DNA from: Anaerolineales bacterium
Lineage (GTDB): Bacteria > Chloroflexota > Anaerolineae > Anaerolineales > RBG-16-64-43
NCBI GenBank assembly: GCA_016928575.1
Contig: JAFGKK010000122.1
Location: 1-35,292, forward strand
Reading direction: 5' to 3'
Length of the DNA stretch: 35,292 nt
The stretch's first letter is position 1. Each line of letters begins with the position of its first letter. The notes under the pieces are model-generated. The model saw nothing but the letters and a program-made list of their open reading frames with translations, ran no database searches and had not been told where the DNA came from. The translations under genes were made by a program, and so were the position numbers. Below are positions 1 to 32,477 of the stretch, piece after piece.

Positions 1-177
1 ATCCAGGCGTGTGCGCCTCAATATTACACCGTGGCTTCGCAAATGATCGTCATGCCCGAGTGAATTAATCGGGCATCCAGGAACATGCGGAGATAATTCC
101 GCAAGGCGGTTTGGGATAATCTTTTTTGTTATACTTGACATGCATCTTCAATTTAGGGGGAGAAGCAACCGTCTGTT
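1..177. other. Non-coding leader with a palindromic repeat and a candidate promoter
   Basis: No gene is seen here. The stretch holds palindromic element A1 (48-80) and, ahead of the GIY-YIG gene, an extended -10 (TG at 127-128, TATACT at 130-135). A TTGACA at 135-140 has no -10 at the proper distance. A purine-rich AGGGGGAGAAG lies at about 155-165, which is rather far from the ATG at 178 for a ribosome binding site. Confidence 0.5.
48..80 (+). repeat. Palindromic element A, copy A1
   Basis: The copy reads CGTCATGCCCGAGTG, then AATTA, then ATCGGGCATCCAG. An 8-bp perfect stem pairs 52-59 (ATGCCCGA) with 69-76 (TCGGGCAT) around a 9-nt loop. The outer context GTCAT...ATCCAG recurs in inverted orientation at 490-521 and in the same orientation at 3861-3897. 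It lies 98 bp upstream of the intact GIY-YIG gene. Confidence 0.75.
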
Positions 178-468
178 ATGAGAAAGCAACCTGCAGTATA
201 CATATTGGCAAGCGCCAGAAACGGGACCCTATATATTGGCGTAACAAGCAACCTTGTGAAAAGGATCTGGTTGCATAGGGGGGATTTCTTGGGCGGATTT
301 TCCAAGAAATACCAAACCCATCTTCTAGTTTATTATGAAATGCATGAATCCATGCGGATGGCAATTCAGAGGGAGAAACAGCTTAAGAAATGGAACCGTT
401 CATGGAAATTGAAATTGATAGAGAACCACAATCCGACCTGGCGGGATTTATTTGATGAAATTGTATGA
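178..468 (+). CDS. Single-domain GIY-YIG endonuclease-like protein
   Basis: This is a 96-aa protein of the small stand-alone GIY-YIG group (YhbQ/UPF0213-like). The first motif is at residues 7-10 (VYIL, in place of GIY) and the second is YIG at 19-21, followed by the helix with Arg29 and a Glu-containing segment (YYEMHES, about 52-58). The C-terminal LIENHNPTWRDLF is typical of intact family members, so the gene looks complete. The family fold is a DNA nuclease, but the biological role of these mini proteins is largely unknown. The gene sits between inverted copies of palindromic element A (48-80 and 490-521), which suggests a small mobile unit. A second, broken copy is at 3919-4479. The ATG at 178 gives the usual N-terminus. 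Confidence 0.85.
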   Translation: MRKQPAVYILASARNGTLYIGVTSNLVKRIWLHRGDFLGGFSKKYQTHLLVYYEMHESMRMAIQREKQLKKWNRSWKLKLIENHNPTWRDLFDEIV

Positions 469-489
469 GGATCCAATTCGTGCGATCCT

Positions 490-521
490 GGATCCCCGAT
501 AAACCCGCTCGGGGATGACGA
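490..521 (-). repeat. Palindromic element A, copy A2 (inverted)
   Basis: This copy is inverted relative to A1. Stem ATCCCCGA (492-499) pairs with TCGGGGAT (509-516) around AAACCCGC. It begins 22 bp after the stop codon of the GIY-YIG gene, so A1 and A2 frame that gene as inverted repeats. Confidence 0.75.
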
Positions 522-2759: not shown

Positions 2760-3234
2760 GCATTCCGGAAGCGGAAGGTATTTCCGCTGTGGCCGCTCAC
2801 CCCTCCCCGATGTAAAAAATAAGTGAACAGTAAAAAACCTTTTCATTTCCCCCTCATCCCATTCTCCCAGCCCGTTTCTCAAGGTTTATGAATTCGAATA
2901 ATTACTTTCTTTTTCCCGCTGTTGTGGGGCTGGGAAGCCGGTCCCGGCGCAATTCCGGGAAAGGTGCCCGAAACCTGCCCTCGAGTCTACTTCTCGGGGG
3001 GCCGGATGAGGGGGGAGGAGGAGATACTATCCGGCATGCGGTCTTACGGGCTTGGTTCGCGTCCTTCCCGGCAGGCCGCAATTCCCCTGCGTTTCGACCC
3101 CGCGCCTTCCCGGAACAAGCCGATTCTCTCCCTTTTCCTCCCATGATTCCTCCACAATCTTTTGGATAATGAAAGCCGGTAATCCAATCCGCCGCTTTTC
3201 TGACGGCGGATTCACCGGCGATGAGGAGGAAACC
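2760..3234. other. Intergenic region made of repeat B1 and a methyltransferase leader
   Basis: After the RNA methyltransferase stop there is no intrinsic terminator that I can recognise. Most of the interval is element B1. From 3028 to 3234 nothing is recognised except the strong ribosome binding site GAGGAGGA at 3223-3230. Frames open across it on both strands do not continue a recognisable protein. Confidence 0.5.
2831..3027 (-). repeat. MITE-like element B, copy B1
   Basis: The boundaries are approximate. The copy contains a CCCCTCATCCCATTCTCCCAG arm (from about 2850), an AT-richer middle, a 43-bp block (2927-2969) that is an exact reverse complement of 4038-4080, and an end GGATGAGGGGGGAGGAG followed by GATAC (3023-3027). 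The GATAC end matches the terminus of copy B2. No gene is supported across it. Confidence 0.6.
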
Positions 3235-3860: not shown

Positions 3861-3897
3861 GATCGTCATCCCCGAGTGTTCTTATCGGGGATCCGGA
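3861..3897 (+). repeat. Palindromic element A, copy A4
   Basis: GATCGTCATCCCCGAGTG is followed by TTCTT and ATCGGGGATCCGGA. Stem ATCCCCGA (3868-3875) pairs with TCGGGGAT (3885-3892). It lies 22 bp beyond the stop codon of the broken GIY-YIG gene, exactly the spacing between the intact gene and copy A2. Confidence 0.75.
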
Positions 3898-4004
3898 GAC
3901 TTTGCTTTCCTGCGAAGATCATAACCCGTCGAATGGGTTGCGCCAGAAGGGATTCATTTTCTCTATCAATTGCTTCTTCCAACGCCGGCCTTGCTTCTTA
4001 ATAT

Positions 4005-4269
4005 GTATCCACTCAGCCTCCCCCTCATCCGCCCTTCGGGCACCTTTCCCGGAATTGCGCCGGGACCGGCTTCCCAGCCCTACATCTACGATTAATGATA
4101 TGAATTTGTTCCAAACCCTCCAGCGGAAACGATGGGCTGGGAGTATGTATTCCGGAACGCATGTTCCGCGCAGAGCGCGGGACAGTGACGGGGGGATGGA
4201 ATGAGGGAGAAAATAATTGGGTGGTTTATCGAAGGTTTTTTCAATCCTTGCATCAGGCTAAGCAGATAC
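4005..4269 (+). mobile_element. MITE-like element B, copy B2, with imperfect terminal inverted repeats
   Basis: This 265-bp element lies inside the GIY-YIG pseudogene. Its ends are GTATCCACTCAGCCT (4005-4019) and AGGCTAAGCAGATAC (4255-4269), which match as inverted repeats at 12 of 15 positions. Internally it has a CCCCTCATCC...TTCCCAGCCC arm (4021-4080) and a roughly complementary GGGCTGGGAG...GGGGGATGGAATGAGGG arm (about 4134-4207). Two small hairpins lie within the latter (GGAACGCATGTTCC and CCGCGCAGAGCGCGG). It has no coding capacity, so it would need a transposase in trans. No clear target duplication is visible. Confidence 0.6.
4038..4080 (-). repeat. 43-bp block, exact inverted copy of 2927-2969
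   Basis: The block begins GGGCACCTTTCCCGGAATTG and ends CCGGCTTCCCAGCCC. It is the perfect reverse complement of 2927-2969. A diverged third copy in the same orientation is at 32283-32325. The pair encloses the methyltransferase gene. Confidence 0.9.
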
Positions 4270-4479
4270 CCCTTTTTTTTCTCCTAGGATGGCGGCCTTC
4301 AAGTTGGAGTGTATTTCGTAATGCGCCAATCCATGCGTTTCATATTTTCTGGAGAACCCCTCGATCATGTTCCGCTTATGCTGACAAATCCTCTCGCGCA
4401 ATTGGCGGGTGACACCCGGGTCCAGGGTTCCATTCCTGCTGCTTGCCGCTATGTATGCCGCCGGTTGTCTTCCTCTCAT

Positions 4480-4794
4480 GGCTGAAGCAATCTTTCCCGA
4501 GTGGCGATGGAATATCAATTGCATCATTTTCGAGAGAGAATTTTCCTGCAGAAGAAGCCGTTGCGTACCTCTCCGGCACGCACAGGTTGCTTACCGTGAT
4601 CGAAAAAGCTGCCGGGTTCCTGCCCCGCGATGGGAACGCCCGGGGGCATACGCCGGCAAGATAGATTCACTGGATCTCCGCTTGAATCATCCCCGCTTCA
4701 TGACGGTACGAGTGTCCGGACCCATCGGGCCCCGATTATTCCGCGAGGGCGGGCGCGGGGGTGATAATCGGTAAGCCGCGCCGGTGTGGTATTT
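4480..4794. other. Non-coding remainder of the repeat zone
   Basis: It contains the decayed A7 copy, one 12-mer CGCGAGGGCGGG (4742-4753), and an inverted repeat CCGATTAT (4732-4739) / ATAATCGG (4764-4771). The last lies just beyond the stop of the isocitrate dehydrogenase gene but lacks a T-run, so a terminator is doubtful. No gene is supported. Confidence 0.5.
4670..4705 (-). repeat. Decayed palindromic element A, copy A7
   Basis: CTGGATCTCCGCTTGAATCA followed by TCCCCGCTTCATGACG resembles the inverted form of element A (CTGGATCCCCG...GGGGATGACG), but the stem is largely lost. It lies on the upstream side of the broken GIY-YIG gene, where A1 sits relative to the intact gene. Confidence 0.4.
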
Positions 4795-11991: not shown

Positions 11992-12573
11992 CTAATCCAT
12001 ATCGTTGCCGATAAAATCCGATAATCCTTCACAAGGTCGAGGTCTTCGATGGTATTCAAGAAATCCGGTTCTTCCCCCGAAACGGGAGAGGGTGGACGCC
12101 CGCTGAATCCGGGTCGGCTTTTGGGATAGGAGGATGTGATAGGACGAATACGGCCAGTCCCTGAAATCAGGTACCAACCCGTGAGTTTGCGGATTTCTGT
12201 GGATATAGTGGACCAAGGCGGCGAAATACCGGCTGGATCCGACGGGAATGCGGTGAAAATGGTGCTGGAATAGCGATCCCGTGCGGGAGTAGGCCTTGTT
12301 GATCGCCAGGGCGTAGGATGCAAACAGCCTATTGAATGCTTTCGAGATCAGCGCCGAAACCGGCTCCTCGCCGGGTTTGACCTTGATCAGGAAATGGAAA
12401 TGGTTGGGCAGCAGACAAAAGGCGTAGGTATCCGACAGCGGCGGTAAAAACCGCTCATGCAACGCGAGGAAATAGGCGTAGTTCCTTTCCTCAAAGAAGA
12501 TGCGGCTCCGGTTAATTCCCCGGTTAAAAATATGGAAGAAGACGCCTGGTTTGAGTGGAATCATCGTTTGCAT
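11992..12573 (-). CDS. REP-associated tyrosine transposase (RAYT, Y1/HUH family)
   Basis: This 193-aa single-strand DNA transposase is related to IS200/IS605 TnpA. The HUH motif is in LLPNHFHFLIKV (His58 and His60). The catalytic tyrosine is most likely Tyr123 in ALVHYIHRNP. The N-terminal FHIFNRGINR and the later FRDWPYSSYHI are typical of the group. Length and motifs suggest an intact gene. It is bounded by a 17-bp direct repeat (11964-11980 and 12587-12603, one mismatch), each copy containing or forming a palindrome. In other bacteria such proteins mobilise or maintain REP palindromes. No passenger gene is present. Confidence 0.9.
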   Translation of the reverse strand: MQTMIPLKPGVFFHIFNRGINRSRIFFEERNYAYFLALHERFLPPLSDTYAFCLLPNHFHFLIKVKPGEEPVSALISKAFNRLFASYALAINKAYSRTGSLFQHHFHRIPVGSSRYFAALVHYIHRNPQTHGLVPDFRDWPYSSYHILLSQKPTRIQRASTLSRFGGRTGFLEYHRRPRPCEGLSDFIGNDMD

Positions 12574-13255: not shown

Positions 13256-13762
13256 ATGCGCACATCCATCCGTTCCACAGCCATCATTTCGATTCTCATC
13301 GCCGCGGCGCTTTCGGGATGTGGAGTGATCGGCGGAGCCTTCACCCTGCCGGAGGATGAGACGGCCACCGCAGCCGCCCTTCCGGCGGGCCTCGGCGGGA
13401 GCGGAGCCGCCCCCGCCGGCACGGTTGCCACGCCGTTGCCCCTGCAAACCGTCACCCTGCTGCCGACGGGCGTTCCCTATCTGCCGGAAGGCTGTCTGGA
13501 CGCCCTTTCGGTCACCCTGGACGACTACGGAAAACGGCTATGCGTCGGCGGAATCGTTACGCGAGTCACATTGGAGGGGGGGACATACCGGGTTTTCTTC
13601 GGCCCGCGCGGCACACTGTATATGCTCGGGTACGATTGGGAGGACCGGATCGGCCTGCGGACGGGCGAATGCGCCTACGCTGAGGGCAAGCTGTCGCGGG
13701 ACGGGGTCGCGCCGGTGATGCCGATCACGCCCTACAGCCTGAAGCGTTGTCCCGCCGCCTGA
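13256..13762 (+). CDS. Hypothetical lipoprotein with one Cys-rich OB-like repeat domain
   Basis: This 168-aa protein has a lipoprotein signal (basic N-terminus, hydrophobic core, ALSGC with Cys22). After a low-complexity linker it has one ~90-residue domain running from LPEGCLDALSVTLDDYG to PYSLKRCPAA, with cysteines at both ends and conserved CVGG, YRVFFGPRG, YMLGYDW and GECAYAEG blocks. The next gene carries the same domain twice. I do not recognise a named family. The strand pattern (entry Cys, V-G-G-x-V, G-E-C, P-V-M-P-I-T) recalls secreted OB-folds, but that is inference. GGAGG lies before the ATG at 13256. Expected location is the outer face of the cytoplasmic membrane. Confidence 0.7.
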   Translation: MRTSIRSTAIISILIAAALSGCGVIGGAFTLPEDETATAAALPAGLGGSGAAPAGTVATPLPLQTVTLLPTGVPYLPEGCLDALSVTLDDYGKRLCVGGIVTRVTLEGGTYRVFFGPRGTLYMLGYDWEDRIGLRTGECAYAEGKLSRDGVAPVMPITPYSLKRCPAA

Positions 13763-13881: not shown

Positions 13882-14739
13882 ATGCCCCTTCGCCAAGCCT
13901 GGGTGCCGCACCCCTTCCGCCCGGCCGCCTGGGTCTGCTGTTTCACTGCGTTGTCCCTCGCGGGCTGCGGAAGCGGCGCCGCCGCGCCAAGCCCGACCCG
14001 GACTTCGACGGATGGGTTGACCGCGACGCAGGATTCCGCTGTGGCCGCTCCAACCGCCGGTTCCACTCCGATGGCATTCACCCCCTTGCCACTGCAGACC
14101 GACACCCCGCTGCCGACCGGCGTCCCGCGTTTGCCGGAAGGCTGCGTCGACGCCCTGGATGTCACCCTCGACGATTACGGCAGGTATCTGTGCGTCGGCG
14201 GAACCATCACGCAGATCACCATGCAGGGCGGCGAGTACCGCGTCTACTTCGGCCCGCGGGGAAAGCTGTATATGCTGGGGTACGACTGGGTCGACCGGAT
14301 CGGATTGCAGGCGGGCGAATGCGCCTACGCCGAAGGCGTGCTCTCGCGCAATGTGGAGGCCGCCGCGCCGGTGATGCCGATCACGCCCTACAGCCTGCGG
14401 CGCTGCCCCGTCGTGCCGCCGGCTTCCGCGCCGCCCCGGCCCGCCAATCTGCCCGCCCAATGCGCCTACGCGCTGGAGATCACCCGCGACGACGCCGGCC
14501 GCAAACTCTGCGTCGGGGGCGCCGTGGTGTTCTCCGAATGGGAGGGCTCCGTCTACCGGATCTACTTCTTCACCGATAAGAACTTCGGACTGCATTTTGT
14601 CAGCCGCCAATGGACCGGCCGCGGGGTGAACGCCGGAGATTGCATCTACGTCACCGAGCAGACTATCGCCTTGGATCCGTCCACCGGCACGCCGATCCTC
14701 AACGTGGTTCCCGGGAACGTGACCTTCTGCCCCGCCTGA
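13882..14739 (+). CDS. Hypothetical lipoprotein with two Cys-rich OB-like repeat domains
   Basis: This 285-aa paralogue of the preceding gene has a signal peptide ending SLAGC (Cys29), a Ser/Thr/Ala linker, and two copies of the ~90-residue domain. The first copy (LPEGCVDALDVTLDDYG to LRRCPV) is nearly the same as that of the upstream gene. The second (LPAQCAYALEITRDDAG to VTFCPA) is more diverged but keeps CVGG, the YRIYF strand and GDCIYVTE. The frame is open to 13747, but the 45 extra residues would bury the signal peptide, so the ATG at 13882 is chosen. The layout implies gene duplication plus internal domain duplication. Function unknown. Confidence 0.65.
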   Translation: MPLRQAWVPHPFRPAAWVCCFTALSLAGCGSGAAAPSPTRTSTDGLTATQDSAVAAPTAGSTPMAFTPLPLQTDTPLPTGVPRLPEGCVDALDVTLDDYGRYLCVGGTITQITMQGGEYRVYFGPRGKLYMLGYDWVDRIGLQAGECAYAEGVLSRNVEAAAPVMPITPYSLRRCPVVPPASAPPRPANLPAQCAYALEITRDDAGRKLCVGGAVVFSEWEGSVYRIYFFTDKNFGLHFVSRQWTGRGVNAGDCIYVTEQTIALDPSTGTPILNVVPGNVTFCPA

Positions 14740-15430: not shown

Positions 15431-15772
15431 TGATGGAGTCGGAAGGTTGCGCGATGAGTGGGGGGAGGGGCAATTCCCTTCGTACTACGCACCGTATTTT
15501 CCCCCTAACAGCTTGTCTCGTGAATTCGCTGAATATCCGAAAAGGCTTAGGGGGGTGCCGTGCCCGCTAGATACACGCGGGCATCCACGCCTCCCAATCC
15601 ATGGATTCCCGCTAAAAACACGCGGGAATGACGACACAACCGGAAGGCGATGTTCCAAACGAAAAATCGTCCTTCGGCCTCGCTCCGCGAAGCGGGGCGG
15701 GGCTCGACCGGCTTGTACAGCACCCTGCCAAGTGTTCTCTTTGAGGCCTTGGCGTCTGCGCGGTAATCGGGT
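15431..15772. other. Non-coding interval with two tandem A-related palindromes
   Basis: No gene is supported. It contains the palindrome pair at 15560-15634 and a GC-rich imperfect hairpin around 15685-15705. A frame open from 15447 to 15806 on the plus strand runs through the palindromes and has no recognisable protein features. No T-run terminator is evident after the epimerase gene, which ends at 15773 on the minus strand. Confidence 0.5.
15560..15634. repeat. Two tandem palindromes related to element A (A5a, A5b)
   Basis: A5a (15560-15586) has TGCCCGC...GCGGGCA followed by TCCA. A5b (15603-15634) has GGATTCCCGC, then TAAAAACAC, then GCGGGAATGACGA. Both keep the GGATNCCCG...CGGGNATGAC logic of element A, with compensatory stem changes (TGCCCGC or ATTCCCGC in place of ATCCCCGA). 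The same-stem, different-sequence pattern indicates selection for the hairpin or repeated mobility. Confidence 0.7.
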
Positions 15773-32152: not shown

Positions 32153-32190
32153 CCAGTAAATCTTCAATAATCACTGGACCCCGGCTTCGA

Positions 32191-32253
32191 ACCCCGCTTC
32201 CCTCGCTTCCCTCGCTTCGCGAGGGCGGGCGCGAGGGCAGGCGCGAGGGCGGG
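32191..32253. repeat. Compound tandem repeat: 9-mer x3 then 12-mer x3
   Basis: Three 9-mers (ACCCCGCTT, CCCTCGCTT, CCCTCGCTT; 32191-32217) are followed by three 12-mers of the form CGCGAGGGCRGG (32218-32253). The order, unit lengths and junction CTTCGCGAGG are the same as at 532-618, 31.6 kb away. Confidence 0.88.
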
Positions 32254-32255
32254 CG

Positions 32256-32352
32256 CTCGGGATAGCTTCTCGGGACGGGTTCGGGTACCTTTCCAGGAGT
32301 TGCCCCGGGACCGGATTCCCAGCCCCGCGACTGTGAACAAAGAGATGAGGGG
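32256..32352 (+). repeat. MITE-like element B, partial copy B3
   Basis: It contains TTCTCGGGACGGGTTCGGGT, then ACCTTTCCAGGAGTTGCCCC, GGGACCGGATTCCCAGCCCC and GATGAGGGGGAGGCTGAGG. It is a diverged copy of the 4038-4080 block and resembles the inverted B1 block, joined directly to the tandem repeat. The ends are unclear. Confidence 0.55.
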
Positions 32353-32477
32353 GAGGCTGAGGAGAAAGGAAAACCGATGAGGGAAAGAAAAAGCAATCCG
32401 CTTGCGACTTTCAAATCGCGAAGGGAATCTGCCCGGGAATGATTTGGCGGTATTTGTCCGCTGGAAAATGTGCGGAT

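Follow-up and report, generated by a model that had tools for sequence, protein, structure and literature searches.

A probable second GIY-YIG nuclease module flanked by REPs, dead and split by a 265-bp MITE

The window analysed here, the whole 35,292-nucleotide contig C122 of a 3.84-Mb genome in 137 contigs (G000) whose gene content suggests an anaerobic member of the Chloroflexota, carries one intact GIY-YIG gene (unit 1) and, on the minus strand, two shorter stretches that resemble parts of the same protein on either side of a repeat element (B2). This raises the question of whether the two stretches are the remains of a single gene (unit 2) and, if so, what split it and what kind of unit it belonged to. 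We consider, with a probability of about 0.85, that the locus represents a second, now dead, GIY-YIG nuclease module with flanking REPs, into which a 265-bp MITE inserted between codons 68 and 69.

A tblastn search of the window with the intact protein (178-465, plus strand) gave minus-strand matches at 4470-4273, covering query residues 3-68 at 52% identity, and at 4002-3928, covering residues 69-93 at 56% identity, which were collinear, in one common frame and had zero gaps. A profile of close homologues, run against all 704 open segments from the six-frame translation of the window, gave only three real matches, namely the intact gene (E value of 1.9e-51), the N-terminal part (profile positions 3-68) and the C-terminal part (positions 68-93), while the next-best match had an E value of 1.4. 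Both types of matches (Table 1) indicate that the split gene is real, well beyond chance. We thus confirmed that 4479-4273 and 4002-3919 of the minus strand are the two halves of one GIY-YIG gene, with its start codon at 4479-4477, its stop codon at 3921-3919 and codons 68 and 69 separated by 270 nt, corresponding to the 265-bp element plus 5 nt. The first-pass annotation had proposed a second GIY-YIG gene split by an insertion; its reading of the protein, KKQGRRWKKQLIE against KKWNRSWKLKLIE, was correct, and aligning the minus-strand halves to the intact copy, as it had suggested, gave no gaps, the same frame and a significant match for the 3919-4002 part.

Table 1 Features of the two GIY-YIG units, the B elements and the CGTC-type palindromes in the window
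Feature	Position	Strand	Basis or remark
CGTC-REP palindrome upstream of intact unit 1	48..81	+	hairpin scan
Intact GIY-YIG gene, unit 1	178..468	+	96 aa; Pfam GIY-YIG PF01541, E 3.1e-14
CGTC-REP palindrome downstream of unit 1, inverted	487..520	-	hairpin scan
Element B1, diverged B-family copy	2815..3035 (ends approximate)	-	98% identity to B2 over 50 bp, inverted
CGTC-REP-type palindrome, downstream end of unit 2	3864..3897	+	CGTCATCCCCGA..loop..TCGGGGATCC; perfect 8-bp stem
C-terminal part, split GIY-YIG gene	3919..4002	-	residues 69 to end and stop codon; tblastn E 6e-6, family profile E 9.6e-5
Element B2, 265-bp MITE	4005..4269		15-bp TIRs at 4005-4019 and 4255-4269; 58 matching places in own genome
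N-terminal part, split GIY-YIG gene	4273..4479	-	residues 1-68; tblastn E 4e-19, family profile E 2.8e-21; YIG changed to DPG
Possible degenerate upstream palindrome, unit 2	4670..4705	-	GTCAT...ATCCAG framing, stem broken; read by eye
Fourth CGTC-type palindrome	15605-15632	-	no GIY-YIG gene beside it
Third B-like element, partial	32280..32361		89% identity over 46 bp and an 18-bp match at the other end

The inserted element is bounded by terminal inverted repeats (TIRs) of the form GTATCTnCTCAGCC, its two ends together showing three mismatches to the family consensus. It had been placed inside the gene, which held, with ends at about 4006-4277, which the 15-bp TIRs corrected to the bounds in Table 1. 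The places in its own genome that are similar to B2 reach at best 83% identity. B TIRs with at most two mismatches were found at 57 + 56 = 113 ends in this genome and at 12 + 7 in the sole other genome of the genus (G001), and they were at background level (0, 4 and 0) in three family members of other genera. Target site duplication was assessed on 29 two-ended B elements from both genomes of the genus by comparing their flanks, with shuffled partners as a control. The flank match peaked at exactly 8 bp (fraction of 0.79 vs. 0.37 when shuffled), and 12 of the 29 elements had perfect 8-bp duplications, with zero perfect ones at the other lengths tested. B is therefore a MITE family by its TIRs, its 8-bp target duplications and its many internal sequences, and the TIR copy number in the genus, the background level outside it and the family-wide duplication bear out the earlier suggestion that B has been mobile in this lineage. 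It shares with MITEs, as non-autonomous TIR elements, the short length, the lack of an own gene, the TIRs, the 8-bp duplication, copies in the tens and diverse interiors, but differs in that the parent insertion sequence was not found and in that the flanks of B2 match at just 3 of 8 positions, its own target duplication having been eroded or lost. A DDE-type transposase acting in trans would have moved B2, although none with these TIRs was found: a DDE_Tnp_1 search of the own genome gave no B transposase, and a Transposase_mut search of it gave three decayed or partial fragments on two contigs, without a B TIR. In G001, two B-TIR elements (locus L113, 1501 onward; locus L117, 1501-1787) hold an internal CGTC-type palindrome (GTCACCCCGGCG...), so the two kinds of repeat nest in each other.

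Since B2 lies inside the GIY-YIG gene, the gene was present first and B2 arrived later, which is the order that the first-pass annotation had deduced. An uninterrupted allele was not found at the corresponding site in G001 or in a member of the same family (G003). The unit 2 region is bordered in its own genome by isocitrate dehydrogenase and TrmH-type genes; the isocitrate dehydrogenase gene of G001 has other neighbours, while in G003 ~300 bp separate it from the TrmH-type gene, an interval that contains neither a unit nor a methyltransferase gene.

Conservation was evaluated over the 46 columns with a conservation of 90% or more among 80 close homologues. The Tyr of the YIG motif (Tyr19), a Tyr in 80/80 homologues, is Asp in the split copy, which consequently lacks this catalytic motif residue of the GIY-YIG superfamily, and the N-terminal half falls below the Pfam PF01541 cut-off (18.7 vs. 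22.6 bits). Judged by its residues, the split GIY-YIG copy is dead, with or without B2. An alternative explanation of the split is that substitutions such as Tyr19 to Asp had already killed the gene, so that B2 landed in neutral junk and inactivated nothing. We give this reading slightly less than an even chance. It would account for the loss of invariant residues from both halves (Y19D, W72Q, D90N), for a mean identity to the 80 homologues of 48%, compared to 67% for the intact copy, and for the longest end branch in the protein tree (1.97). However, both halves are free of stop codons over ~94 codons, the split copy retains 34 of these 46 conserved columns, and the same decay would be expected if B2 had come first.

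A hairpin scan detected four CGTCA-stem-loop-stem-CC(A/G) palindromes in the window, and three of these flank the two GIY-YIG genes. The palindrome downstream of the split gene is inverted relative to it, an arrangement common in the homologues, and the stretch at 4670-4705 is likely, from its framing motifs, a degenerate remnant of the upstream palindrome. The term "unit" holds in a stronger sense than the first-pass annotation could show, covering a palindrome, a gene and an inverted palindrome. The GIY-YIG protein had no match among solved structures, in NCBIfam or in phages. Short GAGGGCAGGCGC-type tandem repeats at 523-620, 4742-4761 and 32182-32261 adjoin unit 1, unit 2 and the third B-like element, respectively.

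The split gene belongs to a subfamily of ~96-aa single-domain GIY-YIG proteins whose genes lie among CGTC-REP/dRS3-like palindromes. In the set of 80 close homologues (59-74% identity, about nine phyla), a CGTC-REP/dRS3-type palindrome was found within 300 bp of the gene in 77 cases and was missing in three. An inverted palindrome pair at 40 of 86 loci delimits a unit of ~460 bp, and C precedes GTCA in 173 of 214 palindromes, with a CCA tail in 204 of them. Palindromes also form arrays (G000 C53:30920-31271 and C109:8-291; G001 C16:57-701) that are partly tandem, with regular spacings of ~46 and 42 bp and alternating orientation in G001.

Comparison of related loci suggests that the unit may move as a whole. 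A Lysobacterales locus (L164) and a gammaproteobacterial one (L180) are 94% identical over 419 bp, from outer palindrome edge to outer palindrome edge, with unrelated flanks, and two Planctomycetota loci (L182 and L183) are 88% identical across 607 bp, with palindrome pairs marking the limits. Azospirillum lipoferum 4B carries a unit between sufB and sufC, genes that are adjacent in A. ramasamyi, A. oryzae and Azospirillum sp. B510, where the site is empty. The site in Sinorhizobium sp. K101 that matches the unit of S. meliloti Ak57 has palindromes and no gene, so the unit may also insert among palindromes that are already in place. Phyla are intermingled in the protein tree, although its 96 columns resolve few forks.

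It could be argued that the palindromes near GIY-YIG genes merely reflect a general intergenic palindrome load to which the nuclease is unrelated. Palindromes are indeed more frequent in distal intervals of the same genomes than in shuffled sequence (18% vs. 5%), and they far outnumber the genes (108 vs. 2 in the own genome). Yet a palindrome was present in 114 of 131 gene-adjoining 600-bp intervals (87%) compared to 24 of 131 intervals 700-1300 bp away (18%; Fisher p value of 9e-31), and within the own order this palindrome type stood beside 6/6 homologues of at least 50% identity and beside 0/21 more distant ones (p value of 3e-6). The six genomes of the order with a close homologue hold 108 (own genome), 214 (G001), 11, 16, 6 and 4 palindromes, two without one hold 8 and 4 (the latter with distant homologues only), and the remaining 33 hold 0-2. 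The sharp unit edges also speak against a general load, as does the tendency of the stem type to follow protein kinship, a CCGG-type locus being the nearest neighbour of 5 of the 10 CCGG-type loci (p value of 0.01), where host kinship is a confounder. Taken together, we regard an unrelated palindrome load as unlikely. An assembly or binning artefact that joined two different genes around a repeat is very improbable: many contigs of the own genome begin or end near MITE ends, but the halves complement each other as parts of a single gene, share a frame and enclose a complete B2 with both TIRs, all within a 35-kb contig.

The palindromes of this module resemble repeats described elsewhere. CGTC-tagged REPs were reported as lacking a dedicated transposase and as not being associated with transposase genes (Di Nocera et al. 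2013; PMC3733652), in a paper that lists them for five phyla, Chloroflexota not among them, and in which the term GIY-YIG does not occur. The CGTC tag, the palindromic stem, the CCA tail, the inverted pairs and the high copy number (108 in the own genome) are shared, whereas the palindromes here flank a GIY-YIG gene and their loops in the window are ~9 nt long, compared to the 4-5 bp that are usual, with exceptions allowed, in that work (PMC3733652); we therefore call them CGTC-REP-type and do not assign them to its four families. The neisserial dRS3 repeat, ATTCCC(N8)GGGAAT, with almost 700 copies in N. meningitidis (PMC3898611), is of the same kind as the palindromes here. The N. gonorrhoeae homologue (62% identity) sits in an array of dRS3 palindromes. 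Two records of ~2.17 Mb listed as N. gonorrhoeae plasmids (NZ_CP119140.1 and NZ_CP119142.1; locus L217) look like chromosomes.

We tentatively take this N. gonorrhoeae homologue to be Ssn, a family reportedly described in Nature Communications in 2025 as site-specific GIY-YIG nucleases for single-stranded DNA that act at the NTS repeat of Neisseria. The palindrome-GIY-YIG module is then probably the known Ssn/NTS system. Both have a single-domain GIY-YIG protein of equal size and repeats around the gene; the module here differs in its Chloroflexota-like host and in its broken second copy. If the Ssn identity holds, the nuclease-repeat pairing is already known, and what is new is its connection with CGTC REPs, along with the sharply delimited units and the existence of empty sites. 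The module is also comparable to REPtrons (RAYT genes flanked by GTAG REPs), in which one small nuclease or transposase gene is flanked by inverted palindromes with many dispersed copies, but it has a GIY-YIG fold in place of a Y1/HUH transposase and a CGTC tag in place of GTAG.

By analogy with the Ssn family, the intact nuclease may recognise the palindromes in single-stranded or hairpin DNA and nick them. Repair of these nicks, or recombination at them, could then copy palindromes and, rarely, the whole palindrome-gene-palindrome unit to new places. We consider this the most likely mechanism for the intact module, at even odds. The split copy would no longer be able to nick palindromes or to spread the unit. 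More tentatively, and with confidence that stops a little short of one half, we propose that CGTC-type REPs have their long-missing dedicated enzyme in the GIY-YIG nuclease and that the unit is a discrete mobile GIY-YIG REPtron, spread across many phyla and seeding palindromes. Taken alone, the split copy is an ordinary nested insertion, useful for dating events and as an example of a MITE family in action. More interesting is the module of which the broken gene was part, as the pairing of subfamily and palindrome bears on what spreads CGTC REPs: these were described in 2013 without a dedicated enzyme, and with the GIY-YIG pairing the question of their enzyme is now testable. Should the nuclease move or maintain CGTC REPs, a second, RAYT-independent kind of REP system would exist, which can be tested directly.

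Elsewhere in the window, an IS200-like Y1 transposase (PF01797, E value of 4e-6) of RAYT/TIRYT-like size is encoded at 11992-12573 on the minus strand, and a 270-bp duplicated segment (13429-13698 and 14079-14348, 77% identical) occurs in two neighbouring reading frames. Outside this contig, many G000 contigs (e.g. C17, C37, C58 and C114) begin or end ~31-110 bp from a B TIR, often close to the middle of a palindromic MITE subfamily of ~164 bp, suggesting that near-identical copies of this subfamily broke the assembly.
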